A stretch of 28,335 nt of DNA from a virus: IMG/VR virus record IMGVR_UViG_3300023231_000029, positions 1-28,335 of that record; one strand, 5' to 3'. Made by a program: the position numbers and the translations under genes. The notes beneath the pieces were generated by a model. The model ran no database searches and was not told where the DNA came from. It saw only the letters and a program-made list of their open reading frames with translations. Below are positions 6,475 through 22,125 of this stretch, piece after piece (positions within the stretch are counted from its first letter, which is position 1; each line of letters opens with the position of its first letter).

Positions 6475-6873
6475 TTAATATTCGTATACACCGCCTTTAA
6501 GGTCTACTAAACCCGTTTCGCGGTTCAAAAACTTGTATTCGATTTTAGTTATATCAAAATCTTTTTTAATTTTTTCACATATCACTTCAGGGTCAAATTC
6601 CCCGCAAGAATATACGTCAAATTGCATTAAAGCTGGGGAAGGTTCATCCCAGACATGCATCACAATGTGTGATGTTTCTATGATAGCTGCGCCGGTAATA
6701 CCTCTATTACCTGGAACGTTATGGTAGATCACATACGGACCCATCAAGACCTTCATGTTAATACATTTAATGAAGTCTTGCAACCATTCTTTTAAGAAGG
6801 TTTCATCCATCGGTGGATTTACCGCTTCTGCTCGGACAATAAGATGTTTATGAACGAGTAGACTATCTTTCAT
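6475..6873 (-). CDS. S-adenosylmethionine decarboxylase-like pyruvoyl pro-enzyme (SpeD/SpeH family)
   Basis: The 132-residue protein matches the short bacterial SpeD/SpeH form, a self-cleaving enzyme whose new N-terminal Ser becomes a pyruvoyl cofactor. Core motif ETSHIVMH at 66-73: Ser68 is the candidate pyruvoyl residue and His73 sits five residues later, as in the characterised Thermotoga enzyme. FDVYSCGEFDP around 85-95 supplies the conserved Cys90. Two differences stand out. A Thr separates the conserved Glu from the Ser, and Ser to Cys is 22 residues rather than 20, owing to a changed PSPALMQ loop. Family members decarboxylate AdoMet for spermidine synthesis, but SpeD homologues with arginine or ornithine decarboxylase activity are known, so the substrate is open. 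It lies between two small membrane-protein genes. The ribosome site is weak, so translation may depend on the gene before it. Confidence 0.85.
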   Translation of the reverse strand: MKDSLLVHKHLIVRAEAVNPPMDETFLKEWLQDFIKCINMKVLMGPYVIYHNVPGNRGITGAAIIETSHIVMHVWDEPSPALMQFDVYSCGEFDPEVICEKIKKDFDITKIEYKFLNRETGLVDLKGGVYEY

Positions 6874-6879
6874 GGGAAA

Positions 6880-7089
6880 CTAATTAATTTGTACGAATGC
6901 AATAACTCCACTAACTAATGCACCGATTAAAATGTATAATAACTTATCTACCTTGCCGTGTATTTTATCTATGTCTTGATGAATATGTTTTTGTGTACAA
7001 CGAATATTGTCTACATCTTTTTTTACACCAGTCACATGACCATATAATGATATGATGTGTTCTCCAGTTGTTTGTGGTTTTTTAGCCAT
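6880..7089 (-). CDS. Small coiled-coil protein with C-terminal membrane anchor, holin/XhlA-like
   Basis: A 69-residue protein: an N-terminal hydrophilic helix around 8-48 with heptad spacing (VTGVKKDVDNI, IHQDIDKIHGKVDKL), then one transmembrane segment LYILIGALVSGVIAFV at about 51-66 and three residues after it. This topology, coiled coil followed by a short C-terminal anchor, is that of XhlA-type phage lysis accessory proteins. The sequence match is not strong enough to name the family. Its start overlaps the stop of the previous gene in the TAATG form, so it is translationally coupled to the collagen-like protein gene. Together with the other membrane protein across the decarboxylase gene it may form a lysis group. 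Confidence 0.7.
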   Translation of the reverse strand: MAKKPQTTGEHIISLYGHVTGVKKDVDNIRCTQKHIHQDIDKIHGKVDKLLYILIGALVSGVIAFVQIN

Positions 7090-7685
7090 TATTCGTCATC
7101 TCCAGAATCATACCCTGGGTCGTTGTCATCCCCTGGGCCTACTTCACTTCCACCACCGTAATCCCCTGCTGCATCGTTAGGACTTTCATCTTCGTCGGGT
7201 CCTCTAACATCTCCAAAAGTAGTCCCTACTGTATTTCCACCAAAAGTATCAACACCGCCATCATTAAAACCATAAGGGTTATCAAGTTGATCGTATCCGC
7301 TTAAAGCTGGATCATTATAACCAAGAACATTCCTACCTATATCATATATACCTTTACCTATATTATACATTCCTAACAAAGGAGCTAATTGTGGAGCGAA
7401 CATACCTATTCCGGTATTAACAAGGCCTCTTTCTAAAAAACTTGCATTATTATATTTACCAAATAAATCTCCAACCCCTCCAGGGCCAGGAGGTCCAGGA
7501 GGTCCTTGATTTCCATCATCACCAGAAGGAAGAAGAGCATCTTTAATTCCAGTAATCCCAGTGATTCCAGCGTTTTGAATAGTAGAAGCTAATCTAGGGA
7601 CACCGCTATAAACATCATCTACCGAAGGTACATACTCCCCTATGTCACTTAAATACTGTTGATATGCTTCGTAAATATTAGTCAT
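7089..7685 (-). CDS. Gly/Asp-rich virion-region protein with short collagen-like tract
   Basis: A 198-residue protein not assigned to a family. Residues 58-69 are four collagen-like triplets (GNQ GPP GPP GPG). A middle segment around 80-125 is moderately hydrophobic (LVNTGIGMFAPQLAPLLGMYNIGKG would span it). The last 50 residues are very rich in Gly, Asp and Glu (GDYGGGSEVGPGDDNDPG). The acidic Gly-rich tail looks disordered. Four triplets are too few for a stable triple helix alone, but phage collagen-like tracts commonly join trimeric virion proteins. The gene is coupled by TAATG overlaps to the giant virion protein gene before it and the membrane-protein gene after it. A virion or ejection-associated role is inferred from context. 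Confidence 0.65.
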   Translation of the reverse strand: MTNIYEAYQQYLSDIGEYVPSVDDVYSGVPRLASTIQNAGITGITGIKDALLPSGDDGNQGPPGPPGPGGVGDLFGKYNNASFLERGLVNTGIGMFAPQLAPLLGMYNIGKGIYDIGRNVLGYNDPALSGYDQLDNPYGFNDGGVDTFGGNTVGTTFGDVRGPDEDESPNDAAGDYGGGSEVGPGDDNDPGYDSGDDE

Positions 7686-14675: not shown

Positions 14676-14704
14676 ACTTTACTTGTTTTTACAGTATAGG
14701 TCAA
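14676..14704 (-). promoter_or_regulatory. Promoter candidate before the internal virion protein genes
   Basis: In the 80-base gap between the glycosyltransferase and the 355-codon gene, the minus strand reads TTGACC (14704-14699), a 17-base spacer and TAAAGT (14681-14676, four of six matches). The -35 overlaps the glycosyltransferase stop codon, as at the main replication promoter. It could give extra transcription of the block ending at 7089. Moderate support only. Confidence 0.45.
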
Positions 14705-15531
14705 TCTTTTTTAAAATCAAGATCATCCATAAACCTACCGGTATATCGATACTCACCTATATGAGTAATATATTCATCCACTAAAATGTGACATTTACCA
14801 CCTATTTCAGCCCATCTTTTACAGAATCCAAAGTCTTCTCCGTAGTACTTTTTGGTTTCTGGTTCATGATAACAATCAAAGAAGTTGTACATAAACTTCT
14901 TCTCAACCATTTCACCATTAACAATAGCGGGTTGATTAATTTTTAATTCTGGTAACTTCTCAATCATGGTATCAAACACTTCTTTTTTAATTAACATACA
15001 TCCGGTAGGAGCATGACTTACTTCTGCTACTCCATTGATTGCAGTTATTTGATTCTTTCCATCTAATTTTAACGGCCAAGTAAATCCTTGTTTAGACATA
15101 GTAGCACCGTCTTGTATATTTTTATATTTAATTCTATTAGCAATCTTATTCCAGTCTAAATCTTTTAATGGATAAGGAGCAGCTATTACATCTTTTTCTG
15201 CTGCTACTAATTTCATAATGGTATCAAAAGAAAACTCAATATCGGAATCAATAAATAACATGTGAGTGTAGGGATGTTTTTCAAATTCTTCCATAAACGC
15301 ATTGACACATAAGTTTCTACCTTGCGTTACTAAAGAAGATTTTAATAAAGAAAAAGAAACTAGAATACCATTGACCATACATTTTTGTTGAAATGCTAAT
15401 AACGCTTGAGTGTAATGAATAGAGCATTCGCTATGAACCGGAGTAGCTACAAAGATAGAAGGTAGTTTACTTACATTAGGTACTTCTTTTTTGTTATCTT
15501 TTACCCAGATAGGTTTACTTGGATCTTGCAT
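14701..15531 (-). CDS. GT-A-fold (family 2-like) glycosyltransferase
   Basis: A 276-residue cytoplasmic enzyme expected to transfer a sugar from a nucleotide sugar. It has the GT-A layout: an N-terminal Rossmann-like strand IFVATPVH at 26-33, an IDSD metal-binding DXD motif with Asp95 and Asp97, and a GEDFGFCKRW segment at 231-240 whose Glu/Asp pair is typical of a catalytic base. A further His lies at 257 in THIGEYRYTGRF. No membrane segment. Acceptor and donor are unknown; virion protein, phage DNA and host surface glycan are all possible. The gene overlaps the end of the second, GT-B glycosyltransferase gene by 17 bases and has an AAAGGAG ribosome site. Phage glycosyltransferases of this kind occur among virion genes of marine phages. 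Confidence 0.85.
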   Translation of the reverse strand: MQDPSKPIWVKDNKKEVPNVSKLPSIFVATPVHSECSIHYTQALLAFQQKCMVNGILVSFSLLKSSLVTQGRNLCVNAFMEEFEKHPYTHMLFIDSDIEFSFDTIMKLVAAEKDVIAAPYPLKDLDWNKIANRIKYKNIQDGATMSKQGFTWPLKLDGKNQITAINGVAEVSHAPTGCMLIKKEVFDTMIEKLPELKINQPAIVNGEMVEKKFMYNFFDCYHEPETKKYYGEDFGFCKRWAEIGGKCHILVDEYITHIGEYRYTGRFMDDLDFKKD

Positions 15532-16450
15532 TGATAGCTCCTTTTAAAAAGTTATTCCATAACGAACCAATACGAGTCCAGTTATAAAATCGGTTAGTAT
15601 AAATAATTTGATCTTGTAAATGTTTTTGAACAATCTCGTTGTCTAAATTACCTACCGCTGTTTCAATAGCATAGGCAAAGTTTTTAGCTAAATTTGCATA
15701 CGATTTTTGATAAGGAATATAGGCCGCATATTCTGCACACGTTTCATATAAAGCTCCATAATTGGTAGTAATACAATAGAGTCCTGCCGACATAGCTTCG
15801 AGCGCCGCGACGCACGAAGTCTCTTCAAAGATACTAGGATAAGCAAAAATATCATATTTAGGTAACTGTTTTATGATATACTCATTCGGTTTATATCCAA
15901 TGTAATTTACATTGGGTAGTTGAATAGCTTGTGTAAACAAAGCTTCAAAATTTTTATTGTTTGCTTGTTTGAATTGATCTCCATAAATTTGAGTAGAAGA
16001 ATATACATCTAAAGTAATTAGTGGATTGGTAATCATTTGCATAGCAGCTAAAATTACATTTAATCCTCTCCAAGGAGTAGAATGAAAAATAAGTTTGATA
16101 GGATCTCCTTTTTTATAACTCATTGCTCTAGGGGTTATTTCAGGGATACCATTTTTAATAACTAAACATTTCTCCGTAGGGATATCAAACATCATTCTAT
16201 ATTTTTCATAGTTCCAATGAGAATTAAATACATACCAATCATATTTAGAATGATTCGAAGTATCTTTAAACCAAGGTGCTAAATTAGCTTGATCATATGA
16301 ATTATGTTGCCATAAGATATTTACTTTATCTTTAGACAAAGGAATTTTTTCAGGGATAGAAGTAGTGATTTGAACTTGATCTAATAACCCTTTATCCGCA
16401 TGTCTTTCTAAAAACTGCACTTGCAGTTCGGTTCCACCAAGTGGCTGCAT
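15515..16450 (-). CDS. GT-B-fold (family 4-like) glycosyltransferase
   Basis: A 311-residue enzyme of the GT-B class. The N terminus has GGTE at 5-8, matching the glycine-rich nucleotide-sugar loop of this family with almost nothing before it, so the N-terminal domain is compact. Other features are WQHN around 47-50, YVFNSHWN at 73-80, FHSTPWRGL at 122-130 joining the domains, and EETSCVAALEAMSAG with the EX7E pair Glu210 and Glu218 that contacts the donor sugar. No signal peptide or membrane segment. The start at 16450 shares TAATG with the stop of a 59-codon gene, so translation is coupled. Paired with a GT-A enzyme, it could add a second sugar or act on a different acceptor. Substrates are unknown. 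Confidence 0.85.
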   Translation of the reverse strand: MQPLGGTELQVQFLERHADKGLLDQVQITTSIPEKIPLSKDKVNILWQHNSYDQANLAPWFKDTSNHSKYDWYVFNSHWNYEKYRMMFDIPTEKCLVIKNGIPEITPRAMSYKKGDPIKLIFHSTPWRGLNVILAAMQMITNPLITLDVYSSTQIYGDQFKQANNKNFEALFTQAIQLPNVNYIGYKPNEYIIKQLPKYDIFAYPSIFEETSCVAALEAMSAGLYCITTNYGALYETCAEYAAYIPYQKSYANLAKNFAYAIETAVGNLDNEIVQKHLQDQIIYTNRFYNWTRIGSLWNNFLKGAINARSK

Positions 16451-16957: not shown

Positions 16958-17122
16958 TTACGTTAAAAACCATTCTATTTGCGCTTGTTCATTTTTTAAA
17001 TCTTTTTGATAACCAAAGTTTAACTCATTCTTTAATGTATTCAACCCTTCGTTCAACTGTCGTTGATTAAACACATCATATTCTTCTCTTGGTTCTGGAA
17101 TCACTGCAGTAATTTTTGCCAT
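16958..17122 (-). CDS. 54-residue small helical phage protein, unknown function
   Basis: Start placed at ATG 17122-17120 (MAKITAVIPEPREEY). The frame is open to 17173, but this start has a strong AGGAGG ribosome site six bases ahead and shares TAATG with the stop of the tail hub gene; the longer frame would read deep into that gene. The protein is hydrophilic and helical, with Asn/Gln-rich charged segments (QLNEGLNTLKNELNFG, LKNEQAQIEWFLT). No domain recognised. Its position just after the tail hub/stabilisation gene suggests a small tail accessory protein, but nothing in the sequence shows this. Confidence 0.65.
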   Translation of the reverse strand: MAKITAVIPEPREEYDVFNQRQLNEGLNTLKNELNFGYQKDLKNEQAQIEWFLT

Positions 17123-19062
17123 TATCTTCTTCCTCCTGCATGAATATCTAACCTCAAGGTTCCATATCTCCAAGTTTCATCCTGACCATCGTTTTCTATT
17201 TTTAAACTAACCTGCCTACCTCTAACCCTAGTGCTTACAAAATTAGTAGTGGTACTAATAGTAAAAGGACCAGTAATTAAAGATCCTGAAGCAGATGATT
17301 GTGAATCGGTGGCTGGATAGTTAGTAAAGAACATGGTTACTTTTGCATTTCCACTTAAGTTTTTAAAGTCTGGTATAAATCTAGATACTCTCATAATATA
17401 TTCACCATCTCCTGCAATTCCTTGTTCGGAAATATCATAATCCCCTGACAAAATATAAGAAGCAATAGCAGTAGTAGATCCTCCAGCGGTTACTTCATTG
17501 GTCCCTGTTTCTTGAGCCCAGTACTGAGAAGAACCATATCTATTGGTTACCCCTTGAATGGCTGGGAAGCTCGGAGTTCCATTAGTAGTAAATTCAGTAG
17601 CGTAGGGTAAATCATAGGTAGTAGCATCATTATAGGTAGTTCTAGATAAAGAACCGGTAGTCCAACTTTGTTCGATAAAGTTATATACTACATTCCTATT
17701 AATTTGTTGCGAGCCGCTCGCTGCATAGTACCAACCCACTTCATTAAATAATGAGTTGTGATATCCATAGGTAATTTGATTAGCATCATAATTAATTCCT
17801 AATCCATCTCCTTGAGTGGTAAATACAAAATCTTCTACTAAGGATGGAAGTTGTTTTACCGTTCCATCGTACATAAAAAATCCACCACCAAAACCCATCC
17901 AGTACACCGCTCCTTGTGCATAGACGGCAGTGTGTTGCCCTAAACATCCACAGTTGGAACCAACTTGTCTTAATGAAAAAGTGTAAGGAGTTCCCACAAA
18001 TTGTATTACATAAGCTGCTTGATCGGTTAACACTAATACATAATCTTTTCCTTGTACGGCTGTTACGATTTCATTTCCTTGGTCAAGCAAGAAAGTACCT
18101 GCTGTATTAGTCGCGGTAGGAGCCCAAGTATTAATATCTTCTTGATTAGAAAAACGTACCAACATTTTGTTTTGTGTAGAAGCATCTCCGACAGTAGTTT
18201 CGGTTCCCATTAAAAATAAATGTCTATCTCTGTCAGAAACTAAACTCATTAATGATCTAGTAGGAGCATCTGCTACGATAGCAGCTCTCGTTTCTAATGC
18301 TGCAGGCTCTCCTGCTAAAGGAGTCCAAGTATAGGTAGAACCGTTTCTAGCAGTTGCAACTAACAACTGTCCATAGTTATCGAGCGACCAGGAGCCAGGA
18401 TCTAAGACCACGGTAGAAGCAGATCGTGCAGTTCCCCATGCTTCTCTTCCATAAGGACCGGTTCCAAATCCATAAGCGGGGGTTTCAAATACAGGACCAA
18501 TGGTTACATAAGGCGTAACCGTTGCAGAACCTTGAGTAGACATACCTGAACCAGATTCGGTAGTAGACATAGTAATAGTAAAATCATCATCATCTGTGGA
18601 AGTAACTTCATAAGTATTGTTAGTAAATTGACTAGCTGAAAAACCTGTTTCACCCCCAGTAGGTAAGGTAATACTAGTAAAAATAATATAAGAACCGTTT
18701 GCAACTCCATGAGCTACTTTATTAACCGTAACGGTTGCTGATCCAGTAGTAGAAGTAAAGGTAAATCCTGTAATAGGGGTCTCTAAAGGAGTAATATCAT
18801 AAAACGCTCCTTCATAATAAATAACTAGCACTTTAGAAGTACCTAGTGCTGCGTATCGAACACCAGTTAAATCAGTCCAAGTGTGTTGTCCTCTGACAGG
18901 TCCTGCTATGGTAGAGTTAACTAATTCTTCCCAACCACCTATTTTTTCAGGTTGGCCGTATCTAAAACGTACGTTATCACCGTCTACCCATTGCCCTTCG
19001 GCACCGGTCTCTGTTTGTTGTTTGTTGAATCCAGGCTTAAATTGTATCTTTTGTAAAGGCAT
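17122..19062 (-). CDS. Tail hub/DNA-stabilisation-like virion protein
   Basis: A 646-residue beta-rich protein. The N terminus MPLQKIQFKPGFNKQQTETG followed by WVDGDNVRFRYGQPEKIGGW is a recurring start in marine podovirus-like structural proteins, often called tail tubular/P22 gp10-like head-completion proteins. The middle includes repeated beta strands (YVIQFVGTPYTFSLRQVG, VYWMGFGGGFFMYDGTVK) suggesting a propeller-like or stacked beta structure. An inserted Thr/Ser-rich domain at about 105-185 (VNKVAHGVANGSYIIF) resembles one in the 200-residue connector protein. Role: probably part of the short tail or its plug. It follows the oxygenase cluster across a 72-base gap with a stem-loop and is coupled by TAATG to the next gene. 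Confidence 0.75.
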   Translation of the reverse strand: MPLQKIQFKPGFNKQQTETGAEGQWVDGDNVRFRYGQPEKIGGWEELVNSTIAGPVRGQHTWTDLTGVRYAALGTSKVLVIYYEGAFYDITPLETPITGFTFTSTTGSATVTVNKVAHGVANGSYIIFTSITLPTGGETGFSASQFTNNTYEVTSTDDDDFTITMSTTESGSGMSTQGSATVTPYVTIGPVFETPAYGFGTGPYGREAWGTARSASTVVLDPGSWSLDNYGQLLVATARNGSTYTWTPLAGEPAALETRAAIVADAPTRSLMSLVSDRDRHLFLMGTETTVGDASTQNKMLVRFSNQEDINTWAPTATNTAGTFLLDQGNEIVTAVQGKDYVLVLTDQAAYVIQFVGTPYTFSLRQVGSNCGCLGQHTAVYAQGAVYWMGFGGGFFMYDGTVKQLPSLVEDFVFTTQGDGLGINYDANQITYGYHNSLFNEVGWYYAASGSQQINRNVVYNFIEQSWTTGSLSRTTYNDATTYDLPYATEFTTNGTPSFPAIQGVTNRYGSSQYWAQETGTNEVTAGGSTTAIASYILSGDYDISEQGIAGDGEYIMRVSRFIPDFKNLSGNAKVTMFFTNYPATDSQSSASGSLITGPFTISTTTNFVSTRVRGRQVSLKIENDGQDETWRYGTLRLDIHAGGRR

Positions 19063-19083: not shown

Positions 19084-19120
19084 GCTAGGATAGATTGGTG
19101 TGGTGGAAATCTACCCTAGC
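19084..19120 (-). terminator. 13-bp stem-loop after the oxygenase genes, terminator-like
   Basis: On the transcribed minus strand GCTAGGGTAGATT pairs with AATCTATCCTAGC over 13 base pairs with one G-U wobble and an 11-base loop. On the plus strand the wobble becomes an A-C mismatch, which points to an RNA structure in the minus-strand transcript. A U-rich but interrupted run (ACTTTATTTAT) follows. It ends the oxygenase cluster and precedes the tail hub gene, so a partial terminator or processing site is likely. Confidence 0.7.
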
Positions 19121-19134
19121 GAGTGGGAACTATA

Positions 19135-19791
19135 TCATCTTTTAAACCAAGCGGGAAGACCTAAATGTGCTCTTTTGTCAAACTTATTGTCTCCAGAACC
19201 TTTAGTCGCTTTGTTATTGTAGTGTAAAAATACTTGTCCGCAATCGGTTCCTTTAAATTTATCTCTCCAGTGTTCTAAAATATTTCCTCTATAGACCAAC
19301 ATATCCCCAGGATTTAAATCTACCCTAGTTCCTTTAGATTTAGAAGATTTATAAGCACCTGTTTTATTATCTACCCCACCTTCTTTTTTATCTGGGTTAA
19401 TATAAATAGGCCAATCGTCTCCACCTAAATTTAGAGTGGTGGATATTTCACAGCTAAACCTATCTTTATGTCTGTGCAAAATATCCCCTTTTTTATAAAT
19501 TCGTGCGTATGCGTATGTCTCAATTAATTTTAAACCTGTTTGTTTTTGCATAATAGGTTTTACTTCGGTCAGTAAAGTCTCCATGGCAATATCTCCATAA
19601 TGAGAATAGGTTTCAGGAACTTGTTGATCATTCCAGACACCGAAATAATCAGTCATAGGTGAAATGTATTTCTCATCAAATAAGGTTCTAGCTACTTTTC
19701 TTTTTAATAAAAAGTATTTGTATACAAAATCAGCAATCTCTGGTGATATTGCTTTTTTAATTACTGTGTATCCATTTTTCTCAAAACTCAT
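19135..19791 (-). CDS. Fe(II)/2-oxoglutarate oxygenase (prolyl-hydroxylase-like), third of three
   Basis: A 218-residue enzyme expected to hydroxylate a substrate using Fe(II), O2 and 2-oxoglutarate. The HKD at 108-110 (in LHRHKDRF) is the HX(D/E) iron motif, and His174 in LEHWRDKFKG is the distal ligand. CGQVFLHYNN at 184-193 ends the beta-helix core. Residues 133-160 are a Lys/Gly-rich loop inserted between strands. No signal peptide. The gene overlaps the second oxygenase gene by four bases and has an AAGGAG ribosome site. The substrate (protein, nucleotide or small molecule) cannot be told. The iron-binding triad is complete, so it should be active. It is followed by the 13-bp stem-loop. 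Confidence 0.82.
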   Translation of the reverse strand: MSFEKNGYTVIKKAISPEIADFVYKYFLLKRKVARTLFDEKYISPMTDYFGVWNDQQVPETYSHYGDIAMETLLTEVKPIMQKQTGLKLIETYAYARIYKKGDILHRHKDRFSCEISTTLNLGGDDWPIYINPDKKEGGVDNKTGAYKSSKSKGTRVDLNPGDMLVYRGNILEHWRDKFKGTDCGQVFLHYNNKATKGSGDNKFDKRAHLGLPAWFKR

Positions 19792-20483
19792 TTTTTCTCC
19801 TTGGTTGTTGTTCTCACCGTATCGGTTATCATTTTTCTCACCGCTTGTAGATTAAAGTGTATAAATCTAAATGGTTCTACTCCATCATCTACGGTGTATT
19901 GATGTTCTAAGTATGCAGGGAAAAAGATCATAGTTCCAGGTTTTGGTTTGTAATGAACTTTATCGGTACCAAAAGAAATCTCTTCTGATTTCTTTAATGG
20001 TAATTGTGACATTACTTTAGCTAATCTTGGATCATTAAACACAGGCATAGAAGTATTTTCAGAACATTCTAAAAAATAAAATCCAGAGATATGATTATCA
20101 TAATGAATATGACTATTGTGATGTCCACCACCTTTATCTGCAAATTCTTGAACCCAAAATTCTGTCCAAAATAATTCATATCCTGACATATCATAACCCA
20201 TATGATCCATCACATTCCAGCTAGTGGCTCCAATATATTCTTGTAATTGTTTTAATTTAGGATCTCCAATCAAAGAAGTAGAATGATAACTTAACCCGTG
20301 ATCCCCTATTTTTTTACCTGCCTTTTTCTCTCTATCCTTAATTGTTTTTTTTAAATTTTTTCTTGCTTGATTGATATAAGTATCACAAACTTTATTAGTA
20401 GACTTAACCCATTCAGGTGCTTCTACATGATAGATAGGGGATTGAAAATAAAGGGAGGTGGATAATGGATCTTTAATAGACAT
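19788..20483 (-). CDS. Fe(II)/2-oxoglutarate oxygenase (TIGR02466-like), second of three
   Basis: A 231-residue protein of the putative oxygenase type with an HIH..N..ISG segment: SHIHYDNHISGFYFLE at 124-139 supplies candidate iron ligands His125 and His127, and FPAYLEHQYTV near 188-197 the distal His194. PFRFIHFNLQAV around 204-215 holds Arg206, a likely 2-oxoglutarate contact. The N-terminal 70 residues are helical and Lys-rich. No canonical HXD is present: the second ligand is His or a nearby Asp129, so iron binding is less sure than in its neighbours. There is one base between it and the first oxygenase gene and a four-base overlap with the third. The ribosome site is weak, so reinitiation is likely. 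Substrate unknown. Confidence 0.78.
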   Translation of the reverse strand: MSIKDPLSTSLYFQSPIYHVEAPEWVKSTNKVCDTYINQARKNLKKTIKDREKKAGKKIGDHGLSYHSTSLIGDPKLKQLQEYIGATSWNVMDHMGYDMSGYELFWTEFWVQEFADKGGGHHNSHIHYDNHISGFYFLECSENTSMPVFNDPRLAKVMSQLPLKKSEEISFGTDKVHYKPKPGTMIFFPAYLEHQYTVDDGVEPFRFIHFNLQAVRKMITDTVRTTTKEKK

Positions 20484-20484
20484 A

Positions 20485-21225
20485 TTATTTAAACGGATAT
20501 CCTAAATTCCACATGACTAAAGAATATCTAGTTCCTTCTGTTACGGGTTTTACTCTATGCCAAACAAAGCTTGGGAATACTACAATAGAGCCTTTTGGTA
20601 AAATTTCTAGACAAGGTCTAGTAGGAGTTGGATCATCTGTATTTCTAAATTGAAATTCTAATTCTCCACCTTTATATTCTTTTGGATCGGACAAACTACA
20701 AGTCACCGATAGTTTTCTAATCTTTCCGTGAGTATCTTTATTATCTGGATTTGCATAAGGTTGATCCCAAGAATCACAATGCCAATCGTAAAATTGATTT
20801 AATTTGTATTTAGTAAATTGACAAGACTCAGAAAAATCCCATTGAAAATTCCAACCAGCACTAGCATTTGCTTGATGTATATACGGTTGAACTTCTTTAT
20901 AAATCCAACGATCATTGAGCCAAGCTATATTGGAATCTCTTTTTTTTCTTAAATCGTTTAATTCTTCTTTTTCTAATTTTGTAGCTGGATCTAATGAATC
21001 TAAATCCTCGTCTGATAAATGAGCCGTTGCTTCTGAAACTTTTCTTTTCTTCTTAGGTTTTTTTGGTTGTGCTTTTTCTTTTTTTTCTAACTCTTCTAAT
21101 TTTTTAGTTTGACCACCTGTCAACGCAATTTGCTCACGTTGTTCATTTCCATATTTTACAATATCATCACAAACCTTTGCAGGGATGGCTGATTTAAAAT
21201 ACCAGTAATAATTTGTTAAATTCAT
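20485..21225 (-). CDS. Fe(II)/2-oxoglutarate oxygenase (PKHD-hydroxylase-like), first of three
   Basis: A 246-residue enzyme. The oxygenase core has DWHCDSW with iron ligands His149 and Asp151, VVFPSFVWHRVKPV with distal His223, and TRYSLVMWN with the 2-oxoglutarate-binding Arg233: a complete PKHD-type set. A GGELEFQF strand at 187-193 joins the halves. Residues about 41-97 form a highly charged insert rich in Lys and Glu, with a lysine-rich run at 55-62 that happens to contain PKKKRKV. That insert is unusual for the family. A promoter-like element lies directly upstream. The gene opens a three-oxygenase run whose members are not close copies of one another, so duplication alone does not explain the cluster. 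Substrate unknown. Confidence 0.85.
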   Translation of the reverse strand: MNLTNYYWYFKSAIPAKVCDDIVKYGNEQREQIALTGGQTKKLEELEKKEKAQPKKPKKKRKVSEATAHLSDEDLDSLDPATKLEKEELNDLRKKRDSNIAWLNDRWIYKEVQPYIHQANASAGWNFQWDFSESCQFTKYKLNQFYDWHCDSWDQPYANPDNKDTHGKIRKLSVTCSLSDPKEYKGGELEFQFRNTDDPTPTRPCLEILPKGSIVVFPSFVWHRVKPVTEGTRYSLVMWNLGYPFK

Positions 21226-21243
21226 AAATTCTTTATATTCTTC

Positions 21244-21271
21244 TTTGTAGAATATATAACAAAAATGTCAA
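21244..21271 (-). promoter_or_regulatory. Promoter candidate for the oxygenase genes
   Basis: On the minus strand a perfect TTGACA (21271-21266), a 16-base spacer and TACAAA (21249-21244, four of six matches) lie in the 55-base gap before the first oxygenase gene. Transcription would begin near 21236, ten bases before the start codon. The spacer itself contains TATATATT, so an alternative -10 with nonstandard spacing is possible. Confidence 0.5.
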
Positions 21272-21280
21272 GTCAGTTAT

Positions 21281-21616
21281 TTACTCTGGCCACGTTCCCT
21301 GTTTCTGTGCACTAAATTGAGATTTTAAACTCCAGACACCTGCAGCTCCACCAGCTCCTACTGTAATTGAATATGGTGTTGCTCCACAAACATTAGTTTC
21401 TACATCTCTATAACCACCTGCACCACCAGCTCCACCACCACCTGAAGTCGGATTCATAGCTCCACCTCCACCGCCTCCCGCAACAGTAATTGCTTGAACA
21501 ACTCTAGTTCCTGGTTGTGTAGTTAAAGTTCCTGATGATGTTTTGGATGTAACTGTGCAGTTACCAAAACTAGTTTGGTTTGTTGTACCAATTATACCGC
21601 CGTTACCTCTAGCCAT
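21281..21616 (-). CDS. Glycine-rich tail-fibre-like protein, shortened paralogue
   Basis: A 111-residue protein starting MARGNGGIIGTTN. Residues 46-52 are AGGGGGG, then GGGGAGGAGGYRDVE and ITVGAGGAAG around 84-93, and it ends GVWSLKSQFSAQKQGTWPE. The start, glycine blocks and end align with the 305-residue protein two genes upstream, but about 200 residues of its glycine-rich body are missing. It is still an intact frame, so it may be a functional short version or a recombination product. The glycine-rich domain belongs to phage tail fibres and adhesins. A gap of 55 bases holding a promoter candidate separates it from the oxygenase genes. A receptor-binding or fibre-tip role is inferred. Confidence 0.7.
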   Translation of the reverse strand: MARGNGGIIGTTNQTSFGNCTVTSKTSSGTLTTQPGTRVVQAITVAGGGGGGAMNPTSGGGGAGGAGGYRDVETNVCGATPYSITVGAGGAAGVWSLKSQFSAQKQGTWPE

Positions 21617-21636: not shown

Positions 21637-22125
21637 TTAATTGCCAGTCGCTGACCAAGATGATGTGTCTGGATCCCAAGCAAATTCTTGAGGGGTAGCA
21701 TCTGAAGTAGTGCCTAACCATCTCAAGTTGTCCTCATCCCAAACAATATTGTAAGGTGCGTTATCACCGTACGTAGTAATACTAGGATAAGTAACTGGTG
21801 CTTGCCAGTCATCATTTGCGTCTAGTAACCAAGAAGCGTAAGGTTGTTGGGAAAGAAATTTATTTTTTGTTGTATCATATACAGATCCAATTCCAGCATA
21901 TTGTTTTCTGAAATTATTATTATATGAAGTCTGCTTCCAGCTTCCACCTTTGAAGAAATTAGAACACCATGTTTCACCATCAACATGCATATCATTATCT
22001 CCAAGAGTTCCGCCATTAGCAGCAATATCGTTTCCAACTACTACTACTCTTTTTACCATCTGATGTGTATCCGATGTAAAACCAGTAGGGTCTACTTTTG
22101 ATTCTAGTTCTGCGAAATGTGCCAT
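21637..22125 (-). CDS. Conserved marine phage tail-type protein (MAHFAEL family)
   Basis: A 162-residue protein starting MAHFAELESKVD, with a hydrophobic strand VVVVGNDI around 28-35 and Trp/Tyr-rich segments: GETWCSNFFKGGSWKQTSY, YAGIGSVYD and PYASWLLDANDDWQAPV. This sequence pattern is familiar from marine myovirus and podovirus genomes, near tail-fibre genes. Its exact role is not established, and I know of no assigned enzymatic activity. It is encoded between the two glycine-rich paralogues. A TAGACA/TATAAA promoter and AAGGAG ribosome site precede it, so it probably begins a small transcript that includes the short glycine-rich gene. Confidence 0.7.
   Translation of the reverse strand: MAHFAELESKVDPTGFTSDTHQMVKRVVVVGNDIAANGGTLGDNDMHVDGETWCSNFFKGGSWKQTSYNNNFRKQYAGIGSVYDTTKNKFLSQQPYASWLLDANDDWQAPVTYPSITTYGDNAPYNIVWDEDNLRWLGTTSDATPQEFAWDPDTSSWSATGN

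Follow-up and report, generated by a model that had tools for sequence, protein, structure and literature searches.

A compact block of three different Fe(II)/2-oxoglutarate oxygenase genes in marine phages, including a family named ferrochelatase

Why does a marine phage keep three different oxygenases side by side among its virion genes, and what might they act on? This question is raised by IMG/VR virus record IMGVR_UViG_3300023231_000029, a linear record of 28,335 bases with genes mainly on the minus strand, which we analyzed over its full length (hereafter, the window) and which belongs to a marine phage of the type infecting SAR11 bacteria. An initial annotation had pointed to three adjacent minus-strand genes, P1 (20485–21225; 246 amino acids (aa)), P2 (19788–20483; 231 aa), and P3 (19135–19791; 218 aa), and the coordinates of their open reading frames (ORFs) bear out this layout, with a gap of one base between P1 and P2 and an overlap of four bases between P2 and P3. 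Our analysis identifies the products as three different Fe(II)/2-oxoglutarate (2OG) oxygenases.

Three oxygenase families in one block

P1 is a prolyl-4-hydroxylase/PKHD-like oxygenase that matches the Pfam family 2OG-FeII_Oxy_3 (PF13640; E = 4e-16, 60.2 bits against a cut-off of 27) and phrog_61 (2.5e-35), and its motif H149-C-D151...H223...R233 is invariant across 27 relatives. The catalytic domain resembles the PKHD-type hydroxylases PiuC/YbiX (E = 7e-7 against PiuC structures); however, the similarity is confined to the C-terminal part of P1, and the best score of 59.5 bits lies far under the PiuC/YbiX equivalog cut-offs (143 bits). P1 of the window lineage (20485–21225) also contains a lysine-rich insert of ~35 residues with the stretch PKKKRKV, which is absent from relatives of 206–212 aa.

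P2 scores above the cut-off of TIGR02466 (74.2 against 62.5 bits) and matches PF13759 (3.2e-14; 53.6 bits against a cut-off of 27), with H125-I-H127...H194...R206 invariant across 21 relatives. Its AlphaFold (AF2) model (predicted local distance difference test (pLDDT) score 87.8) is a double-stranded beta-helix whose top Foldseek matches are the TIGR02466 proteins 3bvc (E = 3e-11) and 2rg4 (E = 1e-9), of which P2 is a phage version. P2 is therefore classed as a 2OG oxygenase by both profile and fold, with HxH in place of HxD. The initial annotation had correctly counted two full HxD...H motif sets and one HxH, but the HxH it took for a variant is normal here: the solved homologue 2rg4 has the identical S-H-I-H, which makes HxH a trait of the family.

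Profile–profile comparison of the P1, P2, and P3 families gave no useful similarity, so the three genes are not recent copies of one another, in agreement with the earlier impression that they are not close copies. The ratios of nonsynonymous to synonymous substitution rates relative to homologues lie between 0.06 and 0.25 for P1, P2, and P3, indicating purifying selection on all three.

P3 resembles prolyl hydroxylases, not ferrochelatases

P3 belongs to phrog_2954 (3.9e-48) and has no match in Pfam. Its AlphaFold model (pLDDT 91.3; predicted template modelling (TM) score 0.88) is a predicted double-stranded beta-helix, and a Foldseek search against the PDB returned prolyl-4-hydroxylase of P. 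putida (4j25/4iw3; E~2e-8, best 1.7e-8), a Dictyostelium PHD, and PHD2. At E ≤ 1e-3 there were 642 PDB matches, and the best 50 of the 642 are nearly all 2OG oxygenases, with no chelatase fold among these 50. As the TM-scores lie mainly between 0.5 and 0.6, the fold match fixes the superfamily, not the substrate. P3 thus shares fold and HxD...H with the P. putida enzyme and PHD2, but differs in having only 12–15% identity and no canonical Arg/Lys in the final strand. The motif H108-K-D110...H174 is invariant in 24 phage relatives, and the wider P3 set (n = 24), which reaches T4-like cyanophages and gammaproteobacterial metagenome-assembled genomes (MAGs), likewise keeps H108, D110, and H174 invariant and retains Arg97, Arg176, and Gln186. 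Judged by sequence, the three invariant residues form a putative 2-His-1-carboxylate triad.

The family of P3, PHROG 2954, carries the name 'ferrochelatase' in GenBank and PHROG. Wittmers et al. 2022 (PMC9599517) assign such genes to heme synthesis, in partnership with 2OG oxygenases, and a Western English Channel study reported the phrog2954 'ferrochelatase' as enriched in seasonal viruses (PMC11561400). If this shared name were right, P3 would be a ferrochelatase or a heme-linked partner supplying iron chemistry beside two oxygenases. We hold this to be extremely improbable. A search for the ferrochelatase family PF00762 at E ≤ 1 gave no match in seven phage records (the window, HTVC033P, HTVC023P, 023Pt_psg01, HTVC008M, Mosig, and HTVC027P), while a control search was positive in 10 of 14 genomes. 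The deposited 'ferrochelatases' of S-SM1, HTVC008M, Mosig, HTVC033P, and HTVC023P all match phrog_2954 and none matches PF00762. A viral structure library places P3 next to 2OG oxygenases and prolyl hydroxylases, and an entry named 'Ferrochelatase [S-SM1]' is one of these neighbours. The predicted beta-helix and the invariant HxD...H also speak against the name, as does the annotation of S-CREM1, whose authors call its member of this PHROG a 2OG oxygenase. Doubt had been voiced before, since the 023Pt_psg01 annotation reads 'ferrochelatase / Fe(II) dependent oxygenate'. Our literature search turned up no paper correcting the name of PHROG 2954, although one may still exist. Taken alone, the assignment to the 2OG superfamily and the rejection of ferrochelatase are nearly certain, and what is new here is that the P3 family appears misnamed, its motif and predicted fold being those of an oxygenase.

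Could these oxygenases instead act on nucleic acids, as AlkB-, TET-, or JBP-like enzymes that repair or protect phage DNA? An AlkB-like repair function has been suggested for cyanophage homologues (PMC2984593), and the sole PDB sequence-profile matches of P3 at E < 0.1 are weak ones to a TET-like dioxygenase (E 0.03). These matches are, however, confined to a short C-terminal region of P3, the family 2OG-FeII_Oxy_2 is touched by only 2 of 24 P3 relatives (best E 0.001), and P1 and P2 fall outside the AlkB/TET/JBP-type families in a block that lies among virion genes. We therefore consider a role in nucleic-acid modification improbable.

In four gammaproteobacterial MAGs (L181, L182, L186, and L187), a P3 relative directly follows panB-panC-panD-like genes (named from sequence), and the two cases tested carry a C-terminal SEC-C motif. 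No paper on a bacterial halogenase/TonB/SapC/cupin neighbourhood came up in a literature search.

P1 and P3 form the core of a mobile block

The initial annotation had placed the trio among virion genes, and this holds. Upstream on the minus strand lie a glycine-rich tail-fibre-like ORF of 111 aa (21281–21616; PHROG tail families) and a phrog_7759 protein (T162; 21637–22125); downstream, on the same strand, lies the virion structural protein phrog_3287 (STAB; 17122–19062; E = 2.7e-76). The glycine-rich ORF looks internally shortened, with 111 aa here against ~295-codon matches in the near-identical contig L008; the short form also occurs in L010.

Scattered or single genes in related phages, which would have told against a cassette, were not the pattern observed. 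Searching with P3 recovered 44 distinct loci, a fair basis for the frequency of P2: P1 lies before P3 in every one of them, and P2 is present in 26. In a larger set of 87 distinct loci in which P3 is preceded by 2.5 kb or more of DNA, many of them recovered by the P2 search, P1 again lies before P3 in every case, and P2 is present in 69. P1 and P3 are hence an inseparable core, to which P2 is an accessory. STAB follows the cassette in 39 of 43 loci, and T162 lies near it in 35 of the 41 loci with at least 4.5 kb upstream.

The trio occurs in the same order in the isolates HTVC033P (where a small ORF separates P2 from P3) and HTVC023P, in 023Pt_psg01, and in most IMG/VR relatives. In the HTVC023P-type pelagiphages of Wittmers et al. 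2022 (PMC9599517), the genes are gp61-gp60-gp58 of HTVC033P and gp65-66-67 of HTVC023P, together with those of 023Pt_psg01; the partner named 'ferrochelatase' there is an oxygenase in our analysis. That paper had earlier reported 2OG genes lying together in these phages. Tandem 2OG oxygenases also reach five in a row in HTVC008M and nine in S-CREM1. The T4-like cyanophages S-CREM1, S-SM1, and S-SCSM1 resemble the window in carrying tandem unrelated 2OG oxygenases, including P3-family members, and S-CREM1 has a flavin halogenase beside its array; their arrays differ in being longer, belonging to another phage family, and lacking the P1-P2-P3 block. Contrary to the initial annotation, which had regarded three distinct types together as unusual, the company of several oxygenases is nothing unusual in these phages, and the trio block is not rare.

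The sequence identities of P1 and P3 correlate across loci (rho 0.86), whereas STAB is unlinked (rho −0.03), which indicates that the cassette moves as a unit; in L102, for instance, P1–P3 are 94% identical and STAB only 42%. For the identity of T162 the correlation holds overall (0.78) but disappears among close relatives. In L148 and L151 the cassette sits between STAB and T162 on the strand opposite to both, and in HTVC008M it is likewise on the strand opposite to its neighbours. HTVC027P lacks the trio; the corresponding place holds three different 2OG genes in inverted orientation. phrog_7759 remains the neighbour of inverted cassettes and of the one in another phage family (HTVC008M), and in DSL-LC04 a 2OG gene overlaps a phrog_7759 homologue.

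Accessory genes and further doubtful names

Between or beside P1 and P3, relatives insert a flavin halogenase, DUF6445, a cupin, further 2OG oxygenases, or oxygenases labelled 'endonuclease V'. A flavin-dependent tryptophan halogenase (PF04820, E < 1e-100) lies inside or beside the block at L118:2827–4353 and L141:2878–4362, and the oxygenase arrays of HTVC008M and S-CREM1 are paired with a halogenase too. Halogenase genes inside or beside the block were also noted in L154–L158, L171, L174, and L179. VirX1 of cyanophage Syn10, a characterized phage relative of the halogenase in the block, accepts large substrates in an active site that is wide and accessible (PMC8407142).

Genes called 'DNA endonuclease V' (phrog_274) lie near the cassette at L004:8522–9004, L006:5511–6023, L202:5249–5737, and L119:4505–4999. 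None of these genes matches PF03013, HxD...H is invariant across eight phrog_274 members, and one relative (L148:3927–4454) exceeds the cut-off of 2OG-FeII_Oxy_3. Entries with this name also appear among the structural neighbours of P3 in the viral library. These genes look misnamed and resemble 2OG oxygenases. A further label, phrog_1644 'minor coat protein', is possibly misleading at L141:2216–2878, which matches DUF6445 and, weakly, 2OG oxygenases.

The same neighbourhood bears on whether the trio comprises auxiliary metabolic enzymes for small molecules such as amino acids, osmolytes, or lipids. Phage 2OG oxygenases are classed as auxiliary metabolic genes in PMC9599517, PMC11561400, and PMC9964418, and the fold matches of P3 include hydroxylases of free amino acids. 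Yet no transporter or pathway enzyme was recognized in the cassette, whose partners are oxygenases, a halogenase, and tail genes, and we regard metabolic action on small molecules as unlikely. Elsewhere in the window, 6475–6873 encodes an S-adenosylmethionine decarboxylase (speD-like; PF02675, E = 4.5e-17).

A promoter-like element and a covarying hairpin bound the block

The TTGACA element that the initial annotation had noticed upstream of the trio is present on the minus strand at 21266–21271, kept upstream of P1 in relatives, and followed after 16 nt by the -10-like hexamer TACAAA (21244–21249, minus strand). A strict promoter scan gave nothing at 21271 because of this hexamer, and a 'no promoter' reading based on that scan was withdrawn after comparison of upstream regions across relatives. 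Close relatives have TTGACA-N16-TATAAA or TATAAC at the same place, at -46/-47. Of 60 distinct upstream regions, 17 contain TTGACA and 32 contain TT[G/T]ACA, against 2.1% and 7.7%, respectively, in shuffled sequences. Compared with the sigma-70 consensus (TTGACA, 16–18 nt, TATAAT), the window matches at 10 of 12 positions and close relatives at 11 of 12, with a spacing of 16, which remains under the strict-scan rule. We therefore regard the element as a putative sigma-70 promoter. A host-type promoter makes sense, since HTVC027P of the same phage group carries no RNA polymerase gene and uses the host enzyme (PMC12753301). Other lineages, including HTVC023P, have no TTGACA-type promoter, and in HTVC023P and 023Pt_psg01 a separate promoter is not evident because P1 overlaps the gene upstream.

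At the other end, the predicted 13-bp stem-loop (19084–19120, minus strand; loop TCCACCACACC) lies 14 nt after the P3 stop and is one of two hairpins of 12 bp or more on the gene strand of the window. It recurs 12–16 nt after the P3 stop in relatives, with arms that differ yet stay complementary and an ACCACC-type loop. Across 15 aligned examples, 195 of 195 cells are paired, both sides have changed in 10 of 13 pairs, and the covariation score is 0.729, compared with 0.307 in shuffles; when the partner is shifted by one column, pairing falls below 50%. The gene strand forms several G-U pairs, so that an RNA with the sequence of this strand is favoured. A search of four isolate genomes gave the strong form at a single site each in HTVC023P and 023Pt_psg01, namely the 3′ end of the cassette, and no Rfam family matches the hairpin or the window. 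The strict scan is silent on the hairpin as an intrinsic terminator; the tail ACTTTATTTATA is U-rich but interrupted, and tails vary among relatives. Given this weak U-tract, the hairpin may be a terminator, a 3′ stabilizer, or a processing site. On the strength of its covariation, it appears to be a new RNA element at the 3′ boundary of the cassette. Relatives that lack the ACCACC hairpin, among them L016, L019, L035, and L069, often have a shorter one (AAAACCC...GGGTTTTATG) that covers the start codon of the following gene.

The consulted passages of Wittmers et al. 2022 (PMC9599517) hold no description of these boundaries. The initial idea of a self-contained transcription unit is supported for the window, with its own promoter-like element and conserved 3′ hairpin, but is lineage-dependent, as the overlap of P1 with the upstream gene in HTVC023P and 023Pt_psg01 illustrates.

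Discussion

What, then, do these enzymes modify? The explanation we prefer, which as a whole has in our estimate about an even chance of being right, is a compact, promoter-driven oxygenase cassette in which P3 is not a ferrochelatase and whose products hydroxylate protein side chains, most plausibly in the tail. HTVC023P-type and related marine phages keep this cassette between tail-fibre genes and a virion gene. In the window lineage, host RNA polymerase would transcribe it from its own sigma-70-like promoter, and the conserved hairpin would either end the message or protect it. With Fe(II) most likely bound by its His-x-Asp/His...His triad, each enzyme would split O2 with 2-oxoglutarate and hydroxylate a protein side chain, the most plausible target being the tail-fibre or phrog_7759 protein encoded just upstream; one enzyme may act on what another has modified, as the initial annotation suggested. 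P2 and, in relatives, the further oxygenases, cupin, DUF6445, and flavin halogenase are accessories to the P1 and P3 core. The closest folds to P3 are prolyl hydroxylases of proteins (4iw3 is a prolyl-4-hydroxylase bound to EF-Tu), which would favour a protein substrate, as would the wide active site of VirX1, the relative of the block's halogenase; because T162 also stays beside the cassette across phage families, a tail target seems plausible.

Two more specific ideas about this substrate were dropped. Collagen-like repeats were sought in the structural ORFs, and hydroxylation of collagen was abandoned for want of a substrate; a short collagen-like stretch (GDDGNQGPPGPP) is found in a 198-aa ORF at 7089–7685 of the window. 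Hydroxylation followed by glycosylation through the two downstream glycosyltransferases was set aside as well, as HTVC027P has glycosyltransferases without the trio and HTVC033P has the trio with no detectable glycosyltransferase homologues in the 18.6 kb examined. In the window, a glycosyltransferase (PF00534) and a phrog_1574 protein are encoded at 14701–16450 and are kept downstream of STAB in relatives.

Several observations weigh against a tail-modifying cassette. Prolyl hydroxylases usually, though not universally, bind 2OG through an Arg/Lys in the final strand, at about the position of Gln186 in P3; P3 lacks this residue and has the invariant glutamine instead, although Arg97/Arg176 might substitute for it. 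Small molecules are the substrates of many 2OG oxygenases, no collagen-like substrate turned up beyond one short GPPGPP stretch, a clear promoter of the cassette type is missing from roughly half of the relatives, and the hairpin has a poor U-tract and does not occur in HTVC033P. Moreover, among close relatives the cassette is exchanged independently of phrog_7759 and STAB, which argues against a tight enzyme–substrate pair with the tail genes and leaves host proteins as a serious rival.

According to this rival, the targets of the oxygenases belong to the host, such as EF-Tu or ribosomal proteins, and their modification holds translation or metabolism in a state that favours the phage. That the closest solved fold to P3 is the P. 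putida prolyl-4-hydroxylase, including its complex with EF-Tu, fits this reading, as does the joint travel of P1 and P3 independently of the downstream virion gene. Since the cassette sits among tail genes in most relatives and the fold similarity of P3 is common to hundreds of other 2OG oxygenases, we consider host targets rather unlikely, if slightly more probable than small molecules. A broader form of the tail reading is similarly tentative: different marine phage families may share a modular oxidative tailoring cassette, with P1 and P3 as its core and swappable accessories (2OG oxygenases, cupins, DUF6445, and a VirX1-type halogenase), that hydroxylates or halogenates the phage's own tail proteins and thereby tunes adsorption.

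The most useful outcomes are the corrected 'ferrochelatase' and 'endonuclease V' labels, the indivisible P1 and P3 core with its variable accessories, and the new hairpin, which together with the promoter offers precise boundaries for transcript mapping. If PHROG 2954 is a family of oxygenases, the heme reading falls and these phages keep a set of hydroxylases, which makes a testable question of protein modification out of a vague metabolic story.

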